The translations under genes were made by a program, and so were the position numbers. From Fidelibacterota bacterium (GTDB lineage Bacteria; Pseudomonadota; Alphaproteobacteria; Rhodospirillales; Rhodospirillaceae), in contig CANJLF010000021.1 of the NCBI GenBank assembly GCA_947475295.1, positions 1-44,844 on the forward strand: 44,844 nt of DNA. The letters are read 5' to 3'. The notes under the pieces are model-generated. The model was not told the DNA's origin. It saw nothing but the letters and a program-made list of their open reading frames with translations, and made no database searches. Of the stretch, positions 3,503 through 44,844 are shown one piece after another. The stretch's first letter is position 1, and each line of letters begins with the position of its first letter.

Positions 3503-4561
3503 CTATTTGGTGAAGCGTTCGAGTTCCCGCCGACGCACGACCGCGCCCAACAGCGCCCCATTGTAGAAGCTGATCGCCTCCGCGCCGCTTGGATCGTTGG
3601 TGGTGGCCTCGGTATCGGGAATGAAGGCCGTGATCTCGCCGGTCGTGGCACTGCCGATCCGTATACCCTTTTTCCAACCTGGATTGCGATCACCGCCGGA
3701 TTCGGAATCGGTCACATACATCGTGCCGTCCTTGGCGATCATGATGCCGCTGGGCCGGCCCCACTGCTTCCATACCGCGATCAGGCCGCCGTCCTGGTCG
3801 AACACCGAGATGCGGTTGTTGCCCCGGTCACAGACAAACAAATGCTCTTGTGCATCGAAGGCAAGGCAATGGGGGATTTTCACCTGGCCCGGCGCGGTAC
3901 CGCCGGTGACGATGGTCTTGATGAAAGCGCCGTCTTTGGTGAACTTGCTGATGCGGTTGGCGATCTCGCCGTCATGGCCTTCGGCGATAAAGATCTCGCC
4001 CTTGCTATTGATGATGACTGCGGTGGGTTGAGTGAAAAGCCCCTTATCCGGTGTGCCGGCGACGCCTGCGCGCCCCAGCGCCATCAGCTGTTTTCCACCC
4101 TTGTCGTATTTCAGAACCTGGCTGCCTAGACCGGGCGGTGTTCCGCCGGTGGTGGTTCCGGCGCCCGCGGCGTCGGTGAACCAGATGTCGCCGTTGGACT
4201 CCATGAAGTAGCCGTGGGGAAAAGCGAACAGGCCAACGCCCCAGGTCTTCACGACCTGACCGCTCGCATTAAAAACCAGAACCGGCGGCTCTTTGCGGCC
4301 AACGCAGGAATTCTCGAAACAGCGGTGCGACACGTAGAGCAAGCCATCGGGACCCGGCAGCGCTCCGACCACCGCGCCCCATGGCATGCCGGCGGGCAGC
4401 TTGGCCCAATCGATGGTGCGCGCCGGATAGGGATTAGGAAGGCCGTCGCCCACAGGCTTTGGGTTGGCCTCGCCTTGCCGGATGGTCTGGGCAAAAGACC
4501 CGGCGCCGAAGAACATGAATACGGCAGCAAATGTAATGCGTGCGAATACAGGAATAGCCAT
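3503..4561 (-). CDS. Exported NHL-repeat beta-propeller protein
   Basis: The 352-residue protein begins with a signal peptide (hydrophobic stretch to about residue 23, cleavage near GSFA-QT). The rest forms repeated NHL-type blades, for example FPHGYFMESNGDIWFTDA, QPTAVIINSKGEIFIAEG, IPHCLAFDAQEHLFVCDR and RPSGIMIAKDGTMYVTDS. Such six-bladed propellers bind ligands or partners; some relatives act as peptidyl-alpha-hydroxyglycine amidating lyases, but I see no proof of that activity here. It is divergent from the cytochrome c gene with about 100 bases between starts, and a second NHL protein lies at 7949. The likely location is the periplasm. The function is not known. Confidence 0.85.
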   Translation of the reverse strand: MAIPVFARITFAAVFMFFGAGSFAQTIRQGEANPKPVGDGLPNPYPARTIDWAKLPAGMPWGAVVGALPGPDGLLYVSHRCFENSCVGRKEPPVLVFNASGQVVKTWGVGLFAFPHGYFMESNGDIWFTDAAGAGTTTGGTPPGLGSQVLKYDKGGKQLMALGRAGVAGTPDKGLFTQPTAVIINSKGEIFIAEGHDGEIANRISKFTKDGAFIKTIVTGGTAPGQVKIPHCLAFDAQEHLFVCDRGNNRISVFDQDGGLIAVWKQWGRPSGIMIAKDGTMYVTDSESGGDRNPGWKKGIRIGSATTGEITAFIPDTEATTNDPSGAEAISFYNGALLGAVVRRRELERFTK

Positions 4562-31934: not shown

Positions 31935-33346
31935 TATTCTTTGGCTTTCTCTTTCTCGACTCTAGCTTGTAGAACTTTCTTGAGTTCCGTTCTGTATTCT
32001 CGGTACCAGGCTGCGAACCCCTCACGTACTTCCTGGCGCGCGGAATTGATCGCCAGCGCATTGGCCGGCACGTCCTTCCTCACCACCGCCCCTGCCCCGG
32101 TCATGGCGCCGTCGCCGATCTTCACCGGCGCAACGAGCACGGTGTTGGAGCCGATCGATGCGCCGGCGCCGATATCGGTATGGGACTTGGTGAAGCCGTC
32201 GTAATTGGCGGTGATGGTGCCGGCGCCGATATTGGCCTTGGCGCCGACGCGCGCATCGCCGACGTAGGACAGATGGTTGACCTTGGCGCCGTCTTCAAGA
32301 TGCGCGTTCTTGATTTCGACGAAATTGCCCACATGGGCGTCTTTGCCGACGACGGCCCCGGGACGCAGCCGCGCATAGGGACCGATCACGGCACCCGCCG
32401 AAATATGCGCGCCTTCCAAATGGCAGAAAGCCTTGATCGTGACGTTGTCGTCGACCACGACCCCAGGACCGAAGACCGCGAAGGGTCCGATCTCGACATC
32501 GCGGCCGATTTTGGTATCTGCGGAGAGAAAGACCGTCTCGGGCGCAACCAGCGTGGCGCCGTTTTCCATGGCGCGGCGGCGCAAACGCCGCTGGAAAATC
32601 GCCTCGGCTTCGGCCAGTTCGATGCGGCTGTTGATGCCAAGCAGTTCTTCGGTATCGCCTTCCACCACGGCGCAACCCAGTCCGGCCTTGCGCGCGAAGC
32701 CGACGATGTCGGTGAGATAGTATTCGCCCTTGGCATTGTTGGGCCGCACATCGGCCAGCAAGTCCCACAGTTCCTTGGCGTCGGCCAGCATGATGCCTGA
32801 ATTGCACAGGCGTACTTCGCGCTCGGCGGGCGTTGCGTCCTTGGCTTCGACAATGCGTTCCAGACCGCTCGCGCCGACAATCAGGCGGCCGTAGGCGGCG
32901 GGATCTTGGGGCGAGAAGCCCAGCACCACGACGGACGGTTTTTGGCCGTTCTTGTTTTCGCGCAGCCGCGCGGCGCGCATCTTGCGCAAAGTCTCCGGCG
33001 CAACGAAGGGGGTGTCGCCGTAAGCAATCAGGATGTCGCCCTTGAACGCCGCTAAAGCATCCTTGGCTTGCAGCACGGCATGGCCGGTGCCGAGCCGGTC
33101 TTTCTGCATGACGCAGACGCTGGGCGCCACCGCCTTGGCCACGGCGTCCATATCCGGCCCTATCACCACCACCACCGGCGCGATCTCGGCTTCAGCCAGG
33201 GTGCCCAGCACGTGCGCGACCATGGGCCGGCCGGCAATGGCATGCATGACCTTGGGCAAGGCCGAGCGCATGCGGCTGCCGATACCGGCGGCCAACACGA
33301 TTGCCGCCGTCGGTGCGGCCGTGGGAGGTGACTGATCTGAGGCCAT
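31934..33346 (-). CDS. glmU: Bifunctional UDP-GlcNAc pyrophosphorylase / GlcN-1-P acetyltransferase
   Basis: The 470-residue protein has an N-terminal uridyltransferase domain (AIVLAAGIGSRMRSALPKVM, then RLGTGHAV). A left-handed beta helix of hexapeptide repeats follows from about residue 250 (for example DTKIGRDVEIGPFAVFGPG and HVGNFVEIKNAHL), ending in the acetyltransferase site. It catalyses the last two steps to UDP-GlcNAc. It is the first gene of the minus-strand glmU-glmS-gor unit and lies next to the tRNA-Val integration site. Confidence 0.97.
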
Positions 33347-33744
33347 ATAGTGTCGGGGGCTTTTCGCAGGCGTTAGGGCGGCTCAAGACTGACGTTTCGG
33401 GATTATTGTAAGCCTTTTCAAGCGGAAAGCGAAAATGGCATGGCCTTGGGGCAGGATAAAGGCCGAGTTACGCCTGGGTGTGAGGTGGGGTGTGAGGCTG
33501 GGGTGCGCCGCAGGCCGCCCAAAAATGCTACTCCGGACCCCTCAAAAAACGGTGGGTAAAGCGGAGGATATTGGGGAATGGGCACCGAAGGCTCTGTCCC
33601 CCCGCCGCAAACCCGGCCCATAAGGGCCTATAGGCTGGCGCCCGCGCAGTTGACAGGTTTGGGGCCGGACTTTAAGAACCCAGGCTTCGTACCAATGGCC
33701 TCGTTTCCGAGGCTTCTTTTCGGCCTTCCTTTTGGAACCCGAAC
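33347..33744. other. 398-bp intergenic region between glmU and tRNA-Val
   Basis: I see no supported gene here. The stretch has G-rich direct repeats (GGGTGTGAGG / GGGTGTGAGGC at about 33477-33499) and short open frames on both strands without recognisable features. It should hold the promoters for glmU (minus strand) and the tRNA (plus strand), but I could not pick out a convincing -35/-10 pair. Confidence 0.4.
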
Positions 33745-33819
33745 GGGCGGTTAGCTCAGCGGTAGAGCACACCCTTCACACGGGTGGGGTCACAAGTTCA
33801 ATCCTTGTACCGCCCACCA
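33745..33819 (+). tRNA. tRNA-Val (anticodon CAC)
   Basis: The 75-base gene folds into a full cloverleaf. The acceptor stem GGGCGGT pairs with ACCGCCC, the D stem GCTC pairs with GAGC, the anticodon stem CACCC pairs with GGGTG around the loop TTCACAC (anticodon CAC, valine), and the T stem ACAAG pairs with CTTGT around TTCAATC. The CCA end is encoded. The 3' 47 bases recur at 35934 and, with one inserted base, at 44486, marking this gene as an integration target. Confidence 0.96.
33772..33818 (+). repeat. Attachment-site core, copy 1 (within tRNA-Val)
   Basis: This 47-base segment runs from the anticodon stem (CCCTTCACACGGGTGGGG) to the ACC of the 3' end. Copy 2 at 35934-35980 differs at two positions; copy 3 at 44486-44533 differs at about four and has one inserted base. 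The copies are in direct orientation, as expected for attL/attR-type sites of elements that integrate at tRNA 3' ends. Confidence 0.88.
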
Positions 33820-33842
33820 TTCTCCCAATGACCTCGAAAGCC

Positions 33843-33931
33843 GCGGAAAGCGCGGGTTTTGGCGCGTTAACACCATGATCCCTGGAACCCGGAATCAAGC
33901 CTCAAAATGCGGTGTTGGGGGCGCGGGTTAC
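33843..33931 (+). repeat. Left-end repeat S, copy 1 (89 bp)
   Basis: Identical to 36005-36093 except for one base (C versus G in AACAC[C/G]ATGATC). It begins GCGGAAAGCGCGGGTTTTGG and ends GGGGGCGCGGGTTAC. A GCGCGGGTT 9-mer lies near each end (33850-33858 and 33921-33929). It starts 24 bases after the tRNA end in both modules and is absent after the third tRNA copy, so it belongs to the element and not to the original tRNA flank. Confidence 0.9.
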
Positions 33932-33993
33932 GTGCGAATTACTCGGAAAACCCCTCACACACAAACGTAAGCGATATTTCGCCTAATCCTGCA

Positions 33994-35481
33994 TCACAAA
34001 GAAATTGATTCTCGAACGAGCTGCGCCAAGTCAGTCCGCAATTTACCGGAAATATTGCGGCCTATACTTGTGTTAATAATATTTTCCTGCTCCCGTGGGT
34101 CTTTCTGTAAGTCGTACAGCTCGTCGTATTCAGGATACATATTCCAGTGAACATATTTGTGATGATCTGTTCGAATGGATTTGTAGTCGGCATCAAGAAC
34201 CCATGGGAAGGGTAAATCATCGCTAAAGTTCTCTATTAAAACGGACGAGCGTTTTTCGGCCTTCCCATAACCTTTTGCTAACAATGGCACGAACGACCTC
34301 CCCTGAACGTGGCTTCCGATCGTAGCCTTACCAAAATGCAGGATCGACGGCGCGATATCTATCATTGAGACAAGCGAGCTCACTAACATTCCAGGCTCAA
34401 TTGCGGTGGGATATCTCACAAGCAACGGAGACCGAATAGACTCTTCGTAAGGAAGACGCCTTTCAACACTTAAGCCATGCTCGCCGAAGAAATATCCATT
34501 GTCGCTAGTAAAGATAATCACAGTATTCTCCAGCGTACCGGCTTCCTCTAGTGCCGCCAGAATTCGCCCAACGCTCTCGTCGACCGAAAGAATCATTTCA
34601 GCTCGATCGCGAATGCTTTGCTCGCTTGTGCCGGGATCAAGGATGGGTCCGAACTCCTTCATTATTTCCGGAGAATTCTTTCTTTCTAAGAATTTCCGCA
34701 CCATAACGCTGCCAAGCGTCCCCTCCATCGCTGATTTACTAATCTGCGAGCGCGGGAAGACTTCGTTCTTGTAAAGATCCTTATGTCTGTCCGCTGGGAT
34801 GTATCGATTGCCATACTCCGTATCTACAGATCCGTCGTTTCTCTGAATGGCATCAGGGTGAACGGCTTTGTGAGCGAGGTGAAGAAAGTATGGGCGTGAA
34901 CCATTTCTTTGATCGCTAATGAACTTCAAAGCTCTATCCGTCAAAATATCAGTGACGTATCCCTTAACTGTATCAAGCCTTCCATTCTCGAATATTTTGG
35001 GATCCATAATCTTTCCTTGCCCCGGAAAGCTCACCCAATAGTCGAAGCCGGGCCGTTGTGTGGGATCATTTCCCATATGCCATTTTCCGACATGAGCCGT
35101 CTTGTAGCCCGCACGCTGAAGCTCTTGAGGAAATGTTTTTAAAATATGACTCAAAGCATCACGACTAGCGTTGTTATAAACGCCATGCCGCGCGGTGTGC
35201 TGCCCCGTAAGAATGCACGCGCGATTTGGTGAACATAATGGAGTCGCGTGAAACGCTCTTGAGAATGTTGCACCTTCTCTTACTAACCGATCAATGTTCG
35301 GTGTTTTGAGATATGGGTGTCCGGCGGCACTAAATTCGTCCCACCTAAGATCGTCTACTAAAATCAAAATTATGTTCGGCGGCGCGGTCTTTGCTTGAGT
35401 TGCCAATACCCTCGTTGACCGGTTTGCGGCCAGGGCTACACCACCTGCACCGACCAAACTCAACGCCCTTCTTCGATTCAT
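33994..35481 (-). CDS. Sulfatase (formylglycine-dependent, alkaline-phosphatase fold), exported
   Basis: The 495-residue protein starts with a Tat-like signal (MNRRRALSLVGAGGVALA). It has the sulfatase core: the metal-binding PNIILILVDDLRWDEF, Cys83 in CSPNRACILTG (the CxPxR site converted to formylglycine), HVGKWHMG, and IIFTSDNGYFFGEHG with the second metal pair. The site has Asn where Ser, Thr or Ala is most usual, but CxPxR is kept. It would hydrolyse a sulfate ester outside the cytoplasm; the substrate is unknown. I prefer ATG 35481, with GGAG upstream, over GTG 35505. No formylglycine-generating enzyme is encoded in the window. Its base composition suggests transfer. Confidence 0.9.
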   Translation of the reverse strand: MNRRRALSLVGAGGVALAANRSTRVLATQAKTAPPNIILILVDDLRWDEFSAAGHPYLKTPNIDRLVREGATFSRAFHATPLCSPNRACILTGQHTARHGVYNNASRDALSHILKTFPQELQRAGYKTAHVGKWHMGNDPTQRPGFDYWVSFPGQGKIMDPKIFENGRLDTVKGYVTDILTDRALKFISDQRNGSRPYFLHLAHKAVHPDAIQRNDGSVDTEYGNRYIPADRHKDLYKNEVFPRSQISKSAMEGTLGSVMVRKFLERKNSPEIMKEFGPILDPGTSEQSIRDRAEMILSVDESVGRILAALEEAGTLENTVIIFTSDNGYFFGEHGLSVERRLPYEESIRSPLLVRYPTAIEPGMLVSSLVSMIDIAPSILHFGKATIGSHVQGRSFVPLLAKGYGKAEKRSSVLIENFSDDLPFPWVLDADYKSIRTDHHKYVHWNMYPEYDELYDLQKDPREQENIINTSIGRNISGKLRTDLAQLVRESISL

Positions 35482-35757
35482 AAAAACAACTCCAATGAAG
35501 CTCACCCAATCAGTGATCCATCGTGAGGCATGCTACGCAAAACGGCAATAGCGGAAAGGGCATTCATAGGAAGAGATCGTTGCCAAGCTGCGGCAAGTTG
35601 ATGTTTTCACTACAGCCTGACAGATAAGGCACCCGCCAGTTGAAGCGCTGCCTTAGGCTCCCGCCCGCCAACTTCTGTTGCGCAAAACTTTTCACCATTG
35701 CAAAGCTTCGTCTACATCACTCTAACGCGCAGCTAGACCTATCCATGGTTCAAGTAA

Positions 35758-35980
35758 TTCGCGGGTTCCTCTCGGGTTACAGGTTCTAGATTTCCAGGGA
35801 GTTCAGCAGAATTTCGAATATTGCGCCGGATTCCACATCATTGCGACGTCGGGCCCCGCGCGAAACGCGGAATTCCGCATCACTGCGGTGAAATCCACGG
35901 CTCCCTAAGCAATTGGCGAACATGGCAATTTCGCCCTTCACACGGGTGGGGTCACAAGTTCAATCCATGCACCGCCCACC
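35758..35980 (+). repeat. Right-end repeat R, copy 1 (includes tRNA-Val 3' fragment)
   Basis: It aligns over its full length with 44310-44533, with about 14 differences by eye and one single-base indel. It begins TTCGCGGGTTCCTCTCG and ends with the 47-base tRNA-Val copy. Inside it a 16-mer, ATTCCACATCATTGCG at 35830 and ATTCCGCATCACTGCG at 35872, is directly repeated at a 42-base interval, and GCGGAATTCCGC is a 12-base palindrome. Confidence 0.9.
35934..35980 (+). repeat. Attachment-site core, copy 2 (partial tRNA-Val)
   Basis: The tRNA-Val 3' segment is repeated with two substitutions that break the T stem (CTTGT becomes CATGC). The 5' half of a tRNA is absent, so this is a remnant and not a gene. 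Confidence 0.88.
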
Positions 35981-36004
35981 GGTTCCATAAAGATCTCGAG
36001 ATCG

Positions 36005-36093
36005 GCGGAAAGCGCGGGTTTTGGCGCGTTAACACGATGATCCCTGGAACCCGGAATCAAGCCTCAAAATGCGGTGTTGGGGGCGCGGGTTAC
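36005..36093 (+). repeat. Left-end repeat S, copy 2 (89 bp)
   Basis: 88 of 89 bases match 33843-33931. Like copy 1 it lies 24 bases after the end of the tRNA-Val segment. Confidence 0.9.
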
Positions 36094-36214
36094 TCGCGGG
36101 GGACTTGGAGAGATGATCGGCCGAGCCCGACAGACTTTTCACATGCTTGCAGACCGCCCAAGGCCCCCCTTTAAGAAGGTGGCCTTGAACGGTTTCCGCA
36201 TCAGCAGTGTCAGG

Positions 36215-37816
36215 CTATTTTTTTGGTTCCGTGCAAACAAAATTCTCGGCCACATTGGTGTCGCCGGCACCTTTGTAGCGCGCCATTTGCGGATAGGGGC
36301 AGAGCGGACGCGTCATCTTCACGCCGGCGCTCTGCTTGTCATCGACATACTTTGTCGCAACAACCTGTGTGGGTACGATCCCCTTGTCCACCCATGCTTC
36401 AAGGGCCGGCAGCATATCGAAGGTATTCGGTCCGGGACCTCTGCGGCAGTGTCCCATGGCTGGCACCATGAACAAACGGTAGAAGCTATCGGTTTCCGCC
36501 TGGGCTTTTGCGGCACCGTGCTTTTTGCCCTGGTCCGCAACTACATTATCATAATAGTTGACGGAGTTTTGTGCGGGAATATCCGGATCGCCAAGGCCGT
36601 GATAGTGCATGATCTTGCCGCCACGGGCCTTGAATTTTTCGAGGTCAGGTTCTGATGCATTGAGGACGTATGCAATGGTCTGGCCCGGCACAACTTCCTT
36701 TTTCTCGACATAGTCGATGCTTTGTTTGGTCCATTTCCAGCTGTGGATGTCCCAGTTGGGATCGTCGAATACGAAGTATTTGAAGAATGGGAATCCCTGC
36801 CTACCGTGCTCACCGCCGTAGGGAAAATCGCTGGAGAGCGTGTTAGGCCAATTCTCCGCCTCACCGCCAAGATCGAAACCCGGATAATAGCCGGCCGGAA
36901 CACGGCTACCGGGGCCGGCGTAAAATTTCGTGACGGCCTGCACCTGCTCCGGCGACAGACATGTCTTCGCGGCCTGGCCGGGCTTGCACAGCATCGCTTC
37001 GGAGTTGAACTTGCAGGCGCGCGGATCGCTTATGATACCGTCCTTAATGCCGTCCTTGGCATCGCACGCCTCATTGAGCACCTTGCCTACAATCGGCGCG
37101 GTCCAGTCCGGCAGAATGGAGTTGGGACCTTTGTCATAGAGAACGGAGGCCAGGTACAAATGCCCACCGATGTAGTGATTGGTGGTGTTGTAGCCTGGGG
37201 CGCCAACGATGATGCCATCGTAATCCTCGGGATAGCGCTGAGCCTCCAGCATCCCTTGACGGCCACCCTGGGAGCAGCCGGTAAAATAAGACCGCGAAGG
37301 CGCCTTGCTGTAGAAAGCCTTAACAAACAACTTGGACTGCTCGGTCATCAGGTGAACGGCACGATACCCCCAATCGATAATTTTTTCCGGGTGTCTATAT
37401 GCAAAAGTCCCATCCGAGCCCCAGTGGCCGGTATTGGTATTCGCCACGGCGTAGCCGGCCCTCACCATTGTAGCCATCGCGCCGTAACTGATGGAGCCCG
37501 AAAATCCGCCATTGCCGACCCCGACAAATTTTCCGTTCCAGCCCGCGCTTGGCATCCAGACCTCATACTCGATGTCTGAATCGCTCGTCGGATGCGCCGC
37601 CACCGCGACGCGGCAGAAGGTCGGCATATTATCGAGAACGGTCCCATCGGCAGTCCTGTAAAGACCCGCCGCATTCGTTTGAACTGCGTGAACGTCAGAA
37701 TTGGGGGTCTTATAATCCCACAGCGCCTCGCACTCTATGGCCAGCGCCGGTGCAGCCAGCGCCGATGACGCCAATAGCACGGTGGAAAATGAAAAAATCA
37801 TTGACCTGCATTTCAT
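36215..37816 (-). CDS. Tannase / feruloyl esterase family protein, exported
   Basis: The 533-residue protein has a signal peptide (cleavage near residue 26, ALA-IE). It matches the tannase family (PF07519): nucleophile Ser182 in GCSQGGRQGM with the adjacent Cys181, Asp410 or Asp412 in HGLGDPDIPAQNS, and catalytic His456 followed by Cys457 in AMGHCRRGPG. The Cys181/Cys457 pair is the disulfide that joins Ser and His in this family. The calcium-loop-like CDAKDGIKDGIISDP lies in the lid. It would hydrolyse gallate, ferulate or similar aromatic esters in the periplasm or outside the cell. It is divergent from the TonB receptor gene, 781 bases away. Confidence 0.9.
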   Translation of the reverse strand: MKCRSMIFSFSTVLLASSALAAPALAIECEALWDYKTPNSDVHAVQTNAAGLYRTADGTVLDNMPTFCRVAVAAHPTSDSDIEYEVWMPSAGWNGKFVGVGNGGFSGSISYGAMATMVRAGYAVANTNTGHWGSDGTFAYRHPEKIIDWGYRAVHLMTEQSKLFVKAFYSKAPSRSYFTGCSQGGRQGMLEAQRYPEDYDGIIVGAPGYNTTNHYIGGHLYLASVLYDKGPNSILPDWTAPIVGKVLNEACDAKDGIKDGIISDPRACKFNSEAMLCKPGQAAKTCLSPEQVQAVTKFYAGPGSRVPAGYYPGFDLGGEAENWPNTLSSDFPYGGEHGRQGFPFFKYFVFDDPNWDIHSWKWTKQSIDYVEKKEVVPGQTIAYVLNASEPDLEKFKARGGKIMHYHGLGDPDIPAQNSVNYYDNVVADQGKKHGAAKAQAETDSFYRLFMVPAMGHCRRGPGPNTFDMLPALEAWVDKGIVPTQVVATKYVDDKQSAGVKMTRPLCPYPQMARYKGAGDTNVAENFVCTEPKK

Positions 37817-38597
37817 GAATTATCTCCCCGAAGACCATTGAGTGATGCACACATTTATCAAAGATACTGTTTACTCACACGTAAAATCATCAGCGCCGAC
37901 GGGATCATCGCGTCCGCGTTTTGCCATCTACGCGTTGGTCAGCAGGGTCAAGATAACGTCTGCAAAACCGATGGCGACGGTCGCCAGAGTAGGCGAAAGT
38001 GAATTCGGCATGTCCACTAGATGGAATGAGCTTATTTTATTGTAGAAGCGCGCGCTACCTGCCCCGACAATCTGGCCCCTCGCTCGAGGGCGTTGTTCCG
38101 GGCGCGTTCCGGGCGCGTTCCGGGCGCGTGCCGGGAGTATTCGAAGGCACATAAATGCGACCTCTTGGGCAGGTTCTAGCTCGCGAATTTTAGACCAAAA
38201 CCGAAATGGGGCCATGCGGCAGCGAGGATAAATAAACGGGAGAAGTGTGCCTTGATCTCGGGAAACAGGGATATCGGCGGGCTAGGAAACTCTTGTTCAT
38301 CGCGTACTGCCAGAAAATCCGGGAAAGTACCGCCCGAAGTTGCCAGGGACGGCCCTGACGGCTACAATGTTGCCCGAAACCGGGGTTCATCTGGGGAATG
38401 TCGGTTTATACGACGCCGGTGATTTTTTTGACCTTCGACCGTTTCCGGAATTTCCTAGGAAGTTTCTGGCGAGTGCGCGATGGCGGGCGTCAATTGACCG
38501 AACAGGCCCCTCATAAGTACGACCCGTCAAGTCCTGGAAGCTTCGGCGAAGCCCCGGCGGAATAGGAAATTTAGGTTCTAGAGCCATAAGGGTGCAA
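37817..38597. other. 781-bp divergent intergenic region, tannase / TonB receptor
   Basis: The region should hold the two divergent promoters. It contains an 11-base tandem repeat (38095-38136) and short open frames on both strands that I do not believe are genes. One minus-strand frame ends PTLATVAIGFADVILTLLTN (about 37928-38008) and might be a decayed fragment, but it has no recognisable identity. Confidence 0.5.
38095..38136 (+). repeat. 11-bp tandem repeat, three copies plus a partial one
   Basis: GTTCCGGGCGC occurs at 38095-38105, 38106-38116 and 38117-38127, followed by a degenerate GTGCCGGGA. The 11-base period is close to one helical turn, so it would place sites on one DNA face; it may be an operator array or simple slippage. 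Confidence 0.85.
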
Positions 38598-41288
38598 ATG
38601 ATTGGGGACAAAAAGCGAATCACGGTGTTGGCATGCGCGCTTAACGCCGCAGGAATCCCGCTCTGCCAGGCGGCCGACATAGGCCAGGGTGCGGCCTTCG
38701 AGGAGGTTGTGGTCACCGCACGCAAGCGCGAAGAAAATATCCAGGCCGTTCCCATCTCTATCACGGCTTTCACGGCCGAAGATCTGGAACGCAATAACGT
38801 CAAGACTTTGGCTGATCTGCGCTTGGTCACACCCTCGGTGCAGGTCCAGCCCGACACCTTTCGCCAAGACACTATCAATATCACCGTACGCGGGCTCAGA
38901 AATTTTCCCCGCAGCGGTATTCAATTCGATACTGCGACGGCGGTCTATATCAACGGGCTTTATTATGCGCGCACGTCAGGCCTAACGGCAGCGCTGATTG
39001 ACGTCGACAGCGTTCAGGTATTGAAGGGTCCGCAAGGCACGCTTGTCGGCCGCAACGCCACCGGCGGCGCGGTGCTATATACCACCCGCGAACCAGAAGA
39101 TAAATTCGGCGGTTACGTGACTCTGACCGCGGGTGACTACGGGCGCTATGAGACTCAGGCTGTGGTGAACGTGCCCTTGGGCGAAAAACTAGCTATGCGC
39201 GCGGCGTACTCTTATTCCGAGACCGCGGGGTATCTGAAAAATATTTACTTCGACCCCGCGACCGGTGAGCGCAATGACACGCCTGGAGCTGGCGCACGCA
39301 AAACAGCAATGCTCTTCTCGCTGAAATGGCTGCCGGATGATGTTTCTAAACTTGTTCTGCGCGGCGACTTCGACGCTGAACACTATACCGGATCGTCATA
39401 CCATCTCCTGAATTCCTTCGAGGGCACGCAACCGTCCACCGGGGCCATCGGCTCTAATATCCAGCCTGTGTCCCGTCCGTCGATCTGCAATATTCCCATG
39501 ACCTGCAATCAGGTCACCGATTTGCGCGGCCGCGTGATAGCGCCCTATTTCAGCGACGTCACCGCGCGCACCGTTAACACTGACCCGCGCTCTTACAATG
39601 CTCTGTTGAATTCCCTCGCGCGCCAGCAGGCGGGCAGCTTCTGGACTATCGACCAGGCCGAAAACAACTATAGCAGCGGGCACTTTCAATCAGTGTCTGG
39701 CACCTACGACCGAAGTTTCGGTAGTATTGGCATGAAATTGATGGGCGGCTATCGCTGGACCGACAGTCGCACGCTCTATTACAGCCGAGGGGCTCCGTAC
39801 GCGACCTTGCAAAACGAAGGGGCTGATCCCGACTACAATGCATACACCTCTGAATTGACATTCAACGGCAGTCTCCTCGATACCCAGCTCAATTGGACCG
39901 CCGGCGCCTTTTTCTTTGCCGAAAGCGTGTCGCAGCAGGGCAATCGGGACTATCTGTTTTCAACCAATCAGGTTCGCCCACAACCGGTATCCGGCCGCCA
40001 GATCACGCTGGCCGACACCACAGCAAATGCCGGCAAAAATACCAGTTACGCCGGTTATGGCCAGGCCACTTACAGCATTCGGCCCGATCTGCGTTTTACA
40101 GCCGGGGTGCGCTACTCGATCGATGAACGCAAGGCCCACATCGCTTCCTTTAGCACGCGGTTCCCGGCCACGGCGGCCACCACAGCGGCAATTCCAAACA
40201 GTGTTTTCAATCCTGGCACCTATGTCTTCAACGGCATCTCCTATCAGGGTTATTCGCGATCCTGCGCTCTTTCGGACGCCAATGGAGTCCTACGCCCCAT
40301 CGATGCCTGTTTCATTGACGTCAAGCGGACATTCCGCGATCCAACGTGGACGCTATCTCTGGACTATGACCTGTTTGACTCGACCATGGTCTATTTCACC
40401 TCGCGTCGCGGCTACAAATCCGGCGCGCTGAACAGCGGGGCCAACAACGCCGCCGTGGTAGTAGCGCAGCCGGAAAAAGTTCAAGACTATGAGATCGGCG
40501 TAAAGTCGGATTGGTCCATCGCCGGCATGCCGGTCCGCAGTAACTTTGCCGCCTACCTCACCACTTACAAAAATATCCAGGCGCAGGCTGGCCTGCCCTA
40601 CGTGATTTTTGCCACCGGCCCCAGCGGCGTGCCGTGTACGCAGGCCCTTTACAACGCGGGTCAGTGCACCGGCGCGTCCACGGAAAACGTCACACTCAAT
40701 GCCCGCGCTGCGCAGGTTTATGGCGGAGAGTGGGATGTAAAAGTCAAACCCGTCCCGGAATTGACGCTGTCGTGGAACGGAAGCTATGTGCATGCGAAGT
40801 ACACCGACTTCAGCTTCACCCCGCCGGCGGGATATCTGCAACCCGCAACCGGCGGCTCGCTCACGGGGCAGGCGTTTCCACTGCCCGCTTGGACGATGTC
40901 GGCGTCCGCAACTTATTCTGTCACCGGCGAACAGATCGGTTTGCCCGTTAGGGATTTAGCACTAACTGCCAGCGCCTATAATCAGAGCAATTATCGCACC
41001 GCCTTGGTCGGTTACAATCGGTCGCAACAGACATTGGGCTATACCTTGGCCAGTCTGCGTTTGGCAGTGCAGGACATCGCCAACACCAACGTTGATCTTA
41101 GTGCGAACGTTAGCAATCTTTTCAACACCAAGGCTTGTTACGCCGAGTTCGGCGGAACGGGCGGCGGCGGCGGCGTACTGGCGTCCACTCCCAACGCGAC
41201 CTTTGGCGTGCCCAACACGAGCGGCGTGGTGCAGTGCTATCCCCTGCCGCCACGCATGTTCGCTCTCAGCCTACGCTATGCGTTCTAG
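38598..41288 (+). CDS. TonB-dependent outer-membrane receptor
   Basis: The 896-residue protein has a signal peptide (to about residue 25, CQA-AD) and a TonB-box-like FEEVVVTARKREENIQAVPI. The plug domain includes NITVRGLRNFP, VDSVQVLKGPQGTLVGRNATGGAV and LYTTREP, and a large beta barrel ends in the aromatic FALSLRYAF. It resembles the receptor class often annotated as OMR or FecA-like in sphingomonads and related alphaproteobacteria, which take up plant-derived compounds as well as siderophores. Given the tannase and PQQ dehydrogenase neighbours, uptake of an aromatic or glycosidic substrate is a reasonable guess. ATG 38598 is preferred to GTG 38592. No anti-sigma/sigma pair is nearby. Confidence 0.93.
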   Translation: MIGDKKRITVLACALNAAGIPLCQAADIGQGAAFEEVVVTARKREENIQAVPISITAFTAEDLERNNVKTLADLRLVTPSVQVQPDTFRQDTINITVRGLRNFPRSGIQFDTATAVYINGLYYARTSGLTAALIDVDSVQVLKGPQGTLVGRNATGGAVLYTTREPEDKFGGYVTLTAGDYGRYETQAVVNVPLGEKLAMRAAYSYSETAGYLKNIYFDPATGERNDTPGAGARKTAMLFSLKWLPDDVSKLVLRGDFDAEHYTGSSYHLLNSFEGTQPSTGAIGSNIQPVSRPSICNIPMTCNQVTDLRGRVIAPYFSDVTARTVNTDPRSYNALLNSLARQQAGSFWTIDQAENNYSSGHFQSVSGTYDRSFGSIGMKLMGGYRWTDSRTLYYSRGAPYATLQNEGADPDYNAYTSELTFNGSLLDTQLNWTAGAFFFAESVSQQGNRDYLFSTNQVRPQPVSGRQITLADTTANAGKNTSYAGYGQATYSIRPDLRFTAGVRYSIDERKAHIASFSTRFPATAATTAAIPNSVFNPGTYVFNGISYQGYSRSCALSDANGVLRPIDACFIDVKRTFRDPTWTLSLDYDLFDSTMVYFTSRRGYKSGALNSGANNAAVVVAQPEKVQDYEIGVKSDWSIAGMPVRSNFAAYLTTYKNIQAQAGLPYVIFATGPSGVPCTQALYNAGQCTGASTENVTLNARAAQVYGGEWDVKVKPVPELTLSWNGSYVHAKYTDFSFTPPAGYLQPATGGSLTGQAFPLPAWTMSASATYSVTGEQIGLPVRDLALTASAYNQSNYRTALVGYNRSQQTLGYTLASLRLAVQDIANTNVDLSANVSNLFNTKACYAEFGGTGGGGGVLASTPNATFGVPNTSGVVQCYPLPPRMFALSLRYAF

Positions 41289-41299
41289 CCTACGTTAAA

Positions 41300-41336
41300 G
41301 CGGGGCCAGCACCAGTCCGAAGACTGGTGGGTCCCG
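41300..41336. terminator. Hairpin between convergent TonB receptor and PQQ dehydrogenase genes
   Basis: CACCAGTC (41310-41317) and GACTGGTG (41322-41329) form a perfect stem with loop CGAA. An outer GCGGGGCC/GGTCCCGC stem with one G-T pair extends it. There is no clear U-tract, so it may act as a transcript-end or stability hairpin and not as a classical terminator. Confidence 0.45.
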
Positions 41337-41353
41337 CCCCAGCACGGCCCGGC

Positions 41354-43519
41354 TTATCGTCTCTCTGGCAGAGCAAACACATATAGCTGATTGCCCGTCC
41401 TTGGATACAGAATGTCCTCGGCTATGGTGTCGGGCACGTTACGCGGGCTGCCTCCGCCTTGTCCGGTCGAGACGGCAATGTACTGCTTTCCGTTTGCCGT
41501 AAACGATACGGGAAAGCCCTGCACAGACGATCCAAGGCGCGTAGACCACAAATCTTTGCCGGTCCTTGTGTCGACTGCGCGGAACATACGGTCGAGGCTG
41601 CCCACAAATGAAACGCCCGAATCCGTGCTCAAAACCGCCGTGAGAAAGGGCGCGCGTTGTTCACGAGCCCAGACTTCTTTCATTGACCTGACGTCGTACG
41701 CGGCGAGCTTTCCCATCCGGCCGTCTTTTCCAGGCATTTCATAGAACTTCCGATCTATCGAGCCGCCCCTGCCATCCTCCTCAAGCGCCGGATCGTAACC
41801 CGTTTCGTCCATACAGCTCTGGCTGAGAGGGATTACGAGCAACTGCGACTTTGGATCGAAGCTCATGGCCTGCCAGTTGTGCCCGCCTTCGGTGCTGGGA
41901 CATACCGCAATCCAATCGCCGGCTTTCTGATTTATGATGTCATCGCGATATTTTGGCTCCCCAGTGACCGGATCAATCCGCTCAAAAATATTCTGGAATA
42001 CTGTCTCCGTGGACGCGATGTACTTACCGTTGGTGCGATCCAGCTTCCACAAGATGCCGACCTTGCCGACCGTAAACAATGTTTTACTGCCGTCGATATC
42101 GACAAGCACGCGTTCGTAGACCTCGTCCATATCGAGCGTCTCGCCAGGCGCATGTTGGAAGTACCACTCCAACTTCCCGTCTTCAGGTCGCAGCGCAAGG
42201 GTCGCACTTGTGTACAAGGCCTTGTCCGCCACCTTCATTCCGCGCGAGACCGCAAGATGTGGCTTCGGCTGCGCAACGCCCCAATACATGAGGTTCAATT
42301 CCGGGTCGTAGCTCCCGGTGATCCATGTTTCACCGCCGGCACGGAAGATATCTTTCAGGTTGTTCCATGTGTCGCCGCCCGGCGCGCCCTCCCGGGCTGT
42401 CGTGTAGAATTTCCACAATTCCTTGCCCGTATCGGGATCGTAGGCGCTGATAAAGCAGCCTGCGGCGCGATATTGCGCGCAGCCGCCCAGTCCCTGAACA
42501 ATTCGGCCGTTTGCGACCAGCGGGCCACTGGTGTTCAGATATCCCTGCGAGGGATCGGCGATTTGCGTTTGCCATTTCAGCTCGCCGTTTTTGGCGTCAA
42601 ACGCCACGAGACGCGCATCATTGGTCGCAAGGTATATCTTGTCCTTGTAGATGGCCATATTGCGTAAGGCCGTGCTCGACTGGGGCCCGAGCCGATTCTC
42701 CCAAATCAACTCGCCGTTTGTCGCGTTGAGGGCCTGAACGATATGCCCGCAATTCACAAGGTACATGATCCCGTTATGCACAAGCGGCGTCGGCTGATTG
42801 CGGCCGCCACCGACGCACTCGGTCATCGCCCACGCCCAGTTTAGCTGGAGTCCGCCCACATTTGCCGGCGTGATTTGCGGGAGCGTGGTGTGGCTCCAAG
42901 CTTGGTAATTGTTTCTTACCATCAGCCAGTCACCTGGATCAGGCTTACGAAGCATCGCGTCGGTGACCTCGACGTAGTTCTCGACAACGCCCTTAACAGT
43001 GAGTCCGGTGGCGCCGGTCAAGGGTCTTGCCCTGCGATTCTCGTCCGGAGCTTCGGGCGCAGCCCGACCCGCCGTTACACTCTCGGCAACCGTTGGCGCT
43101 GAGCCGCTGGTGTTCGCGCCAATGATGAGGGTCGATTGCGCCGTCAATTGGGCGGTACTGGCAGGAACCCTATTATGCTGCAGTATGTAGGCCGCGAGCG
43201 CGACATTCCCATCAGGACCTGCAGCGCCCGGGTTCGACATTGGCATCGTGGAAATTTTCTCCACGAGTTCCTGTGCAGTGCGCTGCCTCCATTTTGTCAT
43301 AAATGCGGATCCGGCGAGGGCAGGAGATTCGCTTTCCCCACCGCCGGACAAATCTGGGCGGTGGCAGCTTTGACAGAGGGCTTCATAGTGCTGGCGCCCG
43401 GCGGCAGCCTGCTGCGCTGTATAAGTATCCGGCGCGGGACCAACCCGTTTCGTCGCGTAAAATGCCGCGATGCCAACAAGAGCAATCCCTGCAACGCTTA
43501 AAGCTACGATTTTACGCAT
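41354..43519 (-). CDS. PQQ-dependent dehydrogenase with N-terminal cytochrome c domain
   Basis: The 721-residue protein has an N-terminal signal/anchor (about residues 1-22), a cytochrome c domain with haem motif CQSCH (49-53) and a possible Met ligand in TMPMSNPG. A quinoprotein beta-propeller follows from about residue 195 ([20 protein letters not shown]) with tryptophan-docking blades such as [25 protein letters not shown] and GKDLWSTR, and [19 protein letters not shown]. Known quinohaemoprotein alcohol dehydrogenases carry the cytochrome at the C-terminus; here it is at the N-terminus. It would oxidise an alcohol or sugar in the periplasm and pass electrons to its own haem. The start overlaps the upstream CHRD stop by one base (TGATG), so the two are translationally coupled. 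Confidence 0.9.
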
Positions 43520-43959
43520 CACCGCTTCTCCTCAATGAACAGCCAGCCCCACAAATTTCCGTCCGGCGCTGCTTTGCTTTGAATTTGAATGTACAGTTTA
43601 CTTTTGGCCAGCGCTTCGACTTGGGATGGCGATAGCTCTACCGACCCTGAGACGGTTCCGGCTACATCCTGCGTCACAGTCAAAGGAAACAGGACTGGAC
43701 CGACTACGCCGGTGACAGGACTCATGCGCACGTTGGCGGTGGTGGCGGCCGAGGTGAGTCCGGCGAACGTGCCTGTAATGGTAAGGCGTTGTCCCGCAAG
43801 TTCGGCTGTGGCGGCCCCTTTACCAGCGACCGTGCGTTGCAGGACGGCGTTGAGGGGCAGGCGCGAAAGCGCCGCTTTGTATTTTTGCGTTTGTTGCGCC
43901 AGGGATGATCCAGCAGACGCTACGATCATTAAAGCGGCAATTGCCTGTATGAGTCTCAT
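43519..43959 (-). CDS. CHRD domain protein, exported
   Basis: The 146-residue protein has a signal peptide ([20 protein letters not shown], cleavage near LAQ). It then has a CHRD-type beta domain, seen in [40 protein letters not shown] and [14 protein letters not shown] domains are found in chordin and many secreted bacterial proteins and have no settled function. It is the first gene of a two-gene operon with the PQQ dehydrogenase, so it may support that enzyme as a structural or ligand-binding partner. I chose ATG 43959 because it gives the signal peptide. Confidence 0.82.
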
Positions 43960-44309
43960 GGTTAGTCCGACCCTCGATTGGAATACAAACGTTGCTTCAG
44001 AAGAGATCAAGTTGCGGGGGAGTCATTGAAACGATAACGAGACGCAAGTTGTGGAGGACTATGCGTGCTGGCGGGGACTGTTCGGCTGACGACCGAACGA
44101 GAGCTCGCCTCCATTAAAGTTCCAAAAAACTGCAAAATTCAGCGATGCCGACCCCCCCCCTCTCACCAACACTATAAAATACGCGCCCTATAATGTCCAC
44201 TTCGCACGCGAATGTACGGATGTGGAGTTATTTTCCCAGCCGACGCCGCTCCGCCTTTGGCCCGCAGAGCAAAGTCTGATCACTTTACGGAATTAACCGG
44301 CCCGAATAT

Positions 44310-44533
44310 TTCGCGGGTTCCTCTCGAGTTACAGGTTCCAGATTTCCAGGGAGTTCAGCAGAATTTCGAATATTGCGCCGGATTCCACATCCTTGCGACT
44401 TCGGGCCCCGCGCAAAACGCGGAATTCCGCATCACTAGGGTGAAATCCACGGCTCCCTAAGCAATTGGCGAACATGGAACTTTTGCCCTTCACACGGGTG
44501 GGATCACACGTTCAATCCTTGGTACCGCCCACC
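44310..44533 (+). repeat. Right-end repeat R, copy 2 (includes tRNA-Val 3' fragment)
   Basis: Full-length match to 35758-35980. The 16-base direct repeat at a 42-base interval is kept (44382 and 44424), as is the GCGGAATTCCGC palindrome. Confidence 0.9.
44486..44533 (+). repeat. Attachment-site core, copy 3 (partial tRNA-Val)
   Basis: Third copy of the tRNA-Val 3' end, with about four substitutions and one inserted base; the T stem no longer pairs well. It is not followed by repeat S, so it marks the outer end of the array. Confidence 0.85.
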
Positions 44534-44563
44534 GTTTCAAATAAAAGCCTAAGAGGCGGAACC

Positions 44564-44844
44564 TGTACGGCGTCAGCGCCTATGAGACAGAATTGGGGTG
44601 GTGAATTAGGGAGGGTTTTGGTCTCAACGTAGTGACGGAGGAACGAAGATGAGATCAAAGCCCATGACCACGAAGGCGCCTGCTGAGCGGGTACTCAAGG
44701 ACATACGCCGGGCGACCCGGCGGCATTTTTCAGCCGAAGACAAGATACGCATCGTACTGGACGGCCTGCGCGGCGAGGACAGCATTGCCGAGTTGTGCCG
44801 CCGCGAAGGTATTGCCCAAAGCCTCTATTACGTCTGGTCGAAGG
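44564..44844 (+). mobile_element. IS3-type insertion sequence, left part (runs off the window)
   Basis: TGTACGGCGTCAGCGCC at 44564 begins with TG, as IS3-family ends do, and lies 85 bases before an IS3-type OrfA. The exact end is an inference because the other inverted repeat is outside the window. Confidence 0.6.
44649..44844 (+). CDS. IS3-family transposase OrfA, 5' part
   Basis: The 65 visible residues include FSAEDKIRIVLDGLRGEDSI, AELCRREGIAQSLYYVWSK, the helix-turn-helix of IS3-family OrfA proteins (HTH_Tnp_1 type). GGAGG lies about seven bases upstream of the ATG. The gene is cut by the window end, so I cannot see the frameshift to OrfB or the DDE domain. Confidence 0.9.
   Translation, partial: MRSKPMTTKAPAERVLKDIRRATRRHFSAEDKIRIVLDGLRGEDSIAELCRREGIAQSLYYVWSK

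Follow-up and report, generated by a model that had tools for sequence, protein, structure and literature searches.

How did two unrelated sets of cargo genes, both flanked by the same pair of ends, come to stand in tandem behind a single tRNA? The question is raised by contig CANJLF010000021.1 (C21) of assembly GCA_947475295.1 (G000; 2.70 Mb, 43 contigs, 97% complete), whose entire 44,844 bp were analysed and are referred to here as the window. We observed that an intact tRNA-Val(CAC) gene, which adjoins glmU and glmS in a neighbourhood kept in several relatives, is followed by two direct repeats of its 3′ end (47-48 bases), and that these copies (att, for attachment site) delimit two modules. 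ARAGORN and a repeat comparison bear out this layout, which had been described in an initial annotation made from the sequence alone. Each module opens with a sequence that we call S and closes with one that we call R, and att, R and S are the only parts repeated between the modules. Our preferred reading, held with a little better than even confidence, is that each module is an integrative element in its own right, that the two were inserted serially at the 3′ end of tRNA-Val through an element attachment site (attP) of the form R-att-S, and that they are integrase-free passengers resembling cis-mobilizable elements (CIMEs).

The shared ends carry this reading. R (179 bp) precedes att copies 2 and 3, and S follows copies 1 and 2; both ends had been noted for both modules, but S extends over ~128 bp and not over the 89 bp first assigned to it. 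R together with the start of att is repeated over 215 nt at 93% identity (35755-35969 vs 44307-44521), and att together with S over 176 nt at 88% without gaps (33772-33947 vs 35934-36109) or, alternatively, over 160 nt at 91%. As judged from the sequence comparison, such long and similar repeats lie far beyond what chance would give. Within the genome, R and S were matched at this locus only and att on the window contig only. The GC content of the two modules is 0.49 and 0.57, compared to 0.605 in window positions 1-33744.

The junction between the modules, R1-att-S2 (35755-36109), can be read as a single attP-like block. Similarity between the copies of R and of S ends at short direct repeats: at the outer edge of S, GCGGGTTAC-type repeats whose offsets from att are +103 and +114, the second being degenerate in both S1 and S2, and at the outer edge of R, a GGGTTCC-GGGTTAC doublet ~155-175 bp before att. 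Direct doublets of the GGGTTAC type, with an ~11-bp period, bound the block on both sides of att, and six of the seven occurrences of CGCGGGTT in the window (both strands counted) fall inside R and S. An attP with arm-type sites is the layout typical of arm-binding tyrosine integrases. Since the outer edges of R-att-S coincide with doublets on either side of att, we infer that the block is the attP of such an integrase, the arm-site function of the doublets and the integrase type both being predicted. R1 also contains two copies of an internal direct repeat, ATTCCNCATCANTGCG, recognised by eye, and weak self-complementarity, which are perhaps sites for accessory proteins.

Table 1. Coordinates of the tRNA-Val locus, its two modules and the adjoining insertion sequence (IS) in the window.
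Feature	Position	Strand	Remarks
tRNA-Val(CAC), intact target gene	33745..33819	+	ARAGORN; glmU-tRNA-Val neighbourhood
att copy 1	33772..33818	+	tRNA 3′ part from the anticodon stem
S1, left end of module 1	33819..33947	+	CGCGGGTT at +32 and +103 after att
S1 outer doublet	~33921-33946		second copy degenerate
Sulfatase (PF00884)	33994..35505	-	sole gene of module 1; read inward, starting on the R side
R1, right end of module 1	35755..35933	+	doublet GGGTTCC-GGGTTAC at ~35760-35780
att copy 2	35934..35980	+	direct repeat of the tRNA-Val 3′ part
S2, left end of module 2	35981..36109	+	
Tannase/feruloyl esterase (PF07519)	36215..37816	-	module 2
TonB-dependent receptor	38592..41288	+	module 2
Pyrroloquinoline quinone (PQQ) dehydrogenase	41354..43522	-	module 2; with cytochrome c domain
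CHRD-domain protein	43519..43959	-	module 2
R2, right end of module 2	44307..44485	+	
att copy 3	44486..44533	+	one extra base
IS start, cut by the contig end	44563..44844	+	OrfA from 44649, HTH_Tnp_1

The cargoes are unrelated, as originally annotated: one sulfatase in module 1 and a set of four genes (tannase, TonB receptor, PQQ dehydrogenase, CHRD protein) in module 2. The gaps outside these genes hold only short open reading frames (ORFs) as their longest; one gap in module 2, at 38095-38138, contains short 11-bp tandem repeats. The initial annotation had also reported no recombinase, and none was found in either module by PF00589, tblastn and Pfam searches, none of these being aimed at serine recombinases. 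A six-frame PF00589 search of the genome gave no match on the window contig. With 19 integrase sequences (one present twice) as queries, tblastn found no integrase remnant in 33001-44844; its matches there had E values of at least 0.19, apart from two 12-residue matches to att itself. Ten further module ORFs of at least 117 aa, outside the five cargo genes, had no Pfam match, and four of 105-120 aa were left unscanned.

Ends of the same type recur beside tRNA-Val with other cargo in relatives, as the initial annotation had anticipated. A DNA search of 73 genomes of the family matched 41, nearly all through the tRNA core alone, and found S outside the window in G049 only, beside tRNA-Val and 84-86% identical. 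This exceeds the conservation of core coding DNA, glmS DNA of the window and of G049 being 75.5% identical. The G049 contig, which is identical to the Lake Erken metagenome bin record CAISTS010000044.1, carries a calcineurin-like phosphoesterase and an SbcC-like fragment (the SbcC name was read by eye). Inspection of post-tRNA sequences revealed S beside tRNA-Val in G054, with its doublet at +103/+114 as in G049 and with an HTH_17-like gene (below the Pfam cut-off), an unknown protein and a CmcI-type methyltransferase as cargo. A search of 317 genomes of the order with an S model matched 11 at E ≤ 0.01, the strong hits (G000 twice, G049, G054) being the model's own members by construction. Among the weak matches inspected, only one lay behind tRNA-Val with a doublet, ~208 bp on, in G046, where the doublet alone represents the S end. 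An S-like match right after tRNA-Val in G042 showed no doublet and was judged to be chance, and another on G052 C188 was set aside, there being no tRNA on that contig. Four further weak matches (G287, G248, G184, G267) lay outside the inspected set.

The corresponding R model matched four of the 317 genomes: G000 and G064, again members of the model by construction, and weakly G052 and G109. No tRNA accompanies the R-like stretch on G052 C60, and the weak matches in G109 and on G064 C24 were outside the inspected set. In G064, which belongs to another genus, R lies beside a 3′ fragment of tRNA-Val. This adjacency and the single-sequence matches (E = 0.0024 for R1 and 0.077 for R2, in a small database) give independent support to R in this genome. 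The R-ended cargo (L057 10144-12600, minus strand) encodes a DUF6946 protein and an HNH protein; the latter matches candidate defence effectors (PDC-M68A and endonucleases of the cyclic oligonucleotide-based antiphage signalling type). R and S searches of plasmid, phage and viral sequences returned nothing beyond one tRNA core match. The initial annotation had asked whether R and S are ordinary dispersed repeats; no dispersed copies turned up in their own genome and, counting R and S proper, none away from tRNA-Val in the family.

On G046 C208 (L109/L113, ~3796-3960), the S-type doublet comes after two tRNA-Val copies, first a broken one and then a divergent intact one, as if the element had brought a replacement tRNA. 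Two full tRNA-Val(CAC) genes lie 1 kb and 7 kb apart in G019 and G020 (L047, L048). In G010, an integrase gene (L046 9894-11141) stands directly behind tRNA-Val, and another contig holds a nearly full tRNA-Val copy (L045 18564-18638) with a photolyase gene adjacent.

The exact doublet pattern, written from G046, G049 and G054 after these had been inspected, occurs at three places in the 73 family genomes, all behind tRNA-Val. In a collection of 84,980 genomes it matched 13 loci, two of them near a tRNA (one being G049 itself), and in viral sequences three loci, none with a tRNA and one with an integrase-like ORF ~5 kb off. As a universal marker the doublet was rejected on these counts. In Mesorhizobium sp. 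YM1C-6-2 (L163), tRNA-Gly is followed by an exact GGGTTAC doublet and, ~5.5 kb further, by an integrase gene. In G066 and G071 (L117/L118), from another genus, a common stretch of 716 bp at 93% covers tRNA-Lys and the DNA to 556 bp behind it; a GGGTTAC doublet with one mismatch to the pattern lies ~46 bp behind the tRNA, and different genes follow beyond the shared stretch.

A tRNA-Val element in G051 bears both doublets and an integrase. This integrase has an Arm-DNA-bind_3 domain, as in the tRNA islands labelled P4-type, and central and catalytic domains. A doublet of the form GGT(TAC/AAC/ACC), set after an earlier result had been seen, was found within 400 bp upstream of nine of 30 related integrases of the family (12.8 kb examined), compared to none in 103.9 kb elsewhere in the same loci and one in 361 kb of other family DNA; the 30 loci represent 30 of the 43 matches to the G051 integrase, G051 included. 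The G051 element itself has a doublet on each side of att, the sides lying on two contigs that we take for opposite ends of a single element. The integrase gene sits just inside the R side and reads inward, in the place and direction of the sulfatase gene of module 1.

Contig ends in two relatives may record the movement of such elements. Two G049 contigs have 130 bp in common (the tRNA, the 54 bp upstream of it and one base), after which one continues into S and the other towards glmS; a pair of G045 contigs overlaps by exactly 127 bp, and this overlap stops directly behind the tRNA. Both fit strain mixtures with and without elements, although two full tRNA copies in a single genome would look alike. 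The G049 bin fits a mixture of occupied and empty sites, and empty sites in relatives had been foreseen by the initial annotation.

Taken as serial insertions, the modules would represent two elements that recombined site-specifically with the 3′ end of tRNA-Val(CAC), presumably one after the other, each made of cargo plus one attP divided into its halves R and S. This attP would be recognised by an arm-binding P4-type tyrosine integrase (Arm-DNA-bind_3/DUF4102). A presumed circular form of the module would rebuild R-att-S, and recombination of its att with the anticodon-to-3′ segment of the tRNA would restore the tRNA and leave an att copy on the far side. Because neither module encodes an integrase, the enzyme would have acted in trans, or its gene would have disappeared before or after the final insertion event.

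Several observations weigh against serial insertion of this kind. The doublets of the window are imperfect, with a degenerate second copy in S and GGGTTCC followed by GGGTTAC or GAGTTAC in R, so that a strict GGT(TAC/AAC/ACC) doublet scan scores none in the window, and decay of the arms may be under way. When one mismatch to the exact pattern was tolerated, six places in the 73 genomes matched, compared to five for a reversed control, so weight can be given to the three exact places only. A laxer R search of 11 genomes found no R in the S carriers G049, G054 and G046, and the G054 element, with S but no R found, looks like decay. Searches of the 73 family and 317 order genomes revealed no element that combines these R and S ends with an integrase; mobilisation by an integrase encoded elsewhere, as the initial annotation proposed, is putative. 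The G051 att repeat is only ~27 bp, and no homologue of its integrase was found at E ≤ 1e-30 in G046, G049, G054 or G064 (33% in G000); for these reasons it was rejected as helper, and its element is best seen as an analogue. Neither an excision product nor a copy on the move was observed.

The genome itself encodes five PF00589 genes, on C1, C2 (two), C22 and C27, of which two are Xer-like as read from their sequences. None of the three others is an evident partner, as they adjoin other tRNAs or a fragment: C2:9-776 lies beside tRNA-Phe, C27:27510-27980 beside tRNA-Arg, and C22:36266-37555 beside a Thr-like tRNA fragment (by eye, with no ARAGORN call). Two of these three genes are near contig ends. 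Given their tRNA neighbours, the genome may hold further tRNA islands.

The degenerate doublets and the G054 element, which keeps S and the HTH_17-like gene but has no integrase match and no R, would also be expected if the modules were remnants of autonomous elements that lost their integrase and transfer genes by deletion once inserted and are now immobile. According to the review PMC5704250, tandems usually arise by a route in which one step is the decay of an integrative and conjugative element (ICE) or integrative and mobilizable element (IME) to a CIME. No integrase remnant was found in either complete module, however; cargo extends almost to both module ends, R and S are both kept in two neighbouring modules, and S exceeds core coding DNA in conservation, and we regard decay alone as rather unlikely. 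We give equally little credence to a longer array or composite island, in which an integrase-bearing element of the same type would lie beyond the contig end and the modules would be passengers moved in cis by accretion. An integrase right of att3 is possible, since the contig ends at 44844 within an IS that begins ~30 bp right of att3; seven other partial copies of this IS occur in the genome, four of them at contig ends. The 30 bp before the IS slightly resemble S, but the resemblance is weak: 194 of 20,000 random 30-mers and 133 of 20,000 self-shuffles score as high, and an unrelated post-tRNA sequence in G064 scores higher. Moreover, the assembly yielded att at no other place, and its five PF00589 genes are all on other contigs. 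We sought the right chromosomal flank through the CorA and photolyase genes, which lie on C20 amid other genes and were uninformative.

One island split later, whether its ends were duplicated internally or repeats underwent homologous recombination, appears very improbable. The repeats could recombine, with R1 and R2 93% and S1 and S2 88-91% alike, but S1 and S2 diverge to the same order as S between species, and in other species different cargo accompanies the S end. Nor is the locus a segmental duplication, the second doubt raised by the initial annotation, because the cargoes are unrelated. Serial insertion might be extended to a dedicated family of integrase-free cassettes with a conserved R-att-S, circulating among genera of the bacterial family and installed at tRNA-Val by P4-type integrases in trans; we entertain this tentatively and lean against it.

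Integrase-less, helper-dependent islands are hard to recognise, and conserved attP arms offer a usable signature in the form of R, S and doublets at fixed spacing. If mobilisation in trans is true, single metabolic operons such as sulfatases or sets for aromatic-ester degradation could spread without a mobility gene; if the modules belong to a cassette family, any operon joined to the attP would become a mobile unit.

Known systems cover much of this ground. An integron cassette array has attC sites and an integron integrase next to the array; the repeats seen here are tRNA-derived att with R and S, and no PF00589 match occurs on the window contig up to 44844. P4-type islands, as exemplified by G051, share the tRNA-Val target and doublets on both sides of att, which in the window are present by sequence though imperfect; in G051, however, the integrase lies beside R and att spans ~27 bp, whereas here no integrase was found and the repeat is 47-48 bp.

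CIMEs are linked to ICESt1 of Streptococcus thermophilus. As defined in PMC5704250, they are att-bounded, without integration or transfer genes, and tandem by accretion in the 3′ end of a gene. The modules likewise are att-bounded, retain attL and attR and stand in tandem at a gene 3′ end, and no integration or transfer genes were found (Pfam on cargo and the ten ORFs, PF00589, tblastn). Unlike CIMEs, they have no neighbouring ICE or IME in view, the right side ending with the contig at 44844; as cargo they carry one gene or one catabolic set; and their S end is found again in further species, beside different genes. As to descent from an ICE or IME, no integrase remnants were found in the window, and G054 has its HTH_17-like gene below the cut-off. 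The genomic islands at ssrA in Dehalococcoides, as described in PMC3146451, are tandem and separated by direct repeats of the 3′ end of a small-RNA gene, and 15 of them lack an integration module and carry metabolic cargo, all of which resembles the present locus. They differ in their serine recombinase (DsiB module), 20-bp repeat, transfer-messenger RNA target and known module-bearing islands; here the target is tRNA-Val, there are arm-type doublets, no integrase-bearing partner was found, and the scanned ORFs belong to other families or to none. The additive flexible genomic island fGI-2 of Ca. Methylopumilus, with its 20-bp tRNA-Lys repeat, shares aquatic hosts, repeated tRNA 3′ ends and variable cargo, but long conserved ends of the R/S type are not mentioned in the excerpted description (PMC10872708). 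Tycheposons, compared by description and as partly covered by the same paper, are tRNA-bound cargo elements too; they contain a tyrosine recombinase, whereas the window contig has no PF00589 match.

The initial annotation's suggestion of an undescribed system is not supported: CIMEs, integrase-less ssrA islands and additive tRNA-repeat islands already represent cargo bounded by att sites or tRNA repeats and lacking integration genes of its own. For integrase-free modules with long two-armed att ends and cargo changing across genera, we found no description in a limited open-access search. In conclusion, the locus looks like a small, well-preserved case of the known helper-dependent islands rather than a wholly new system.

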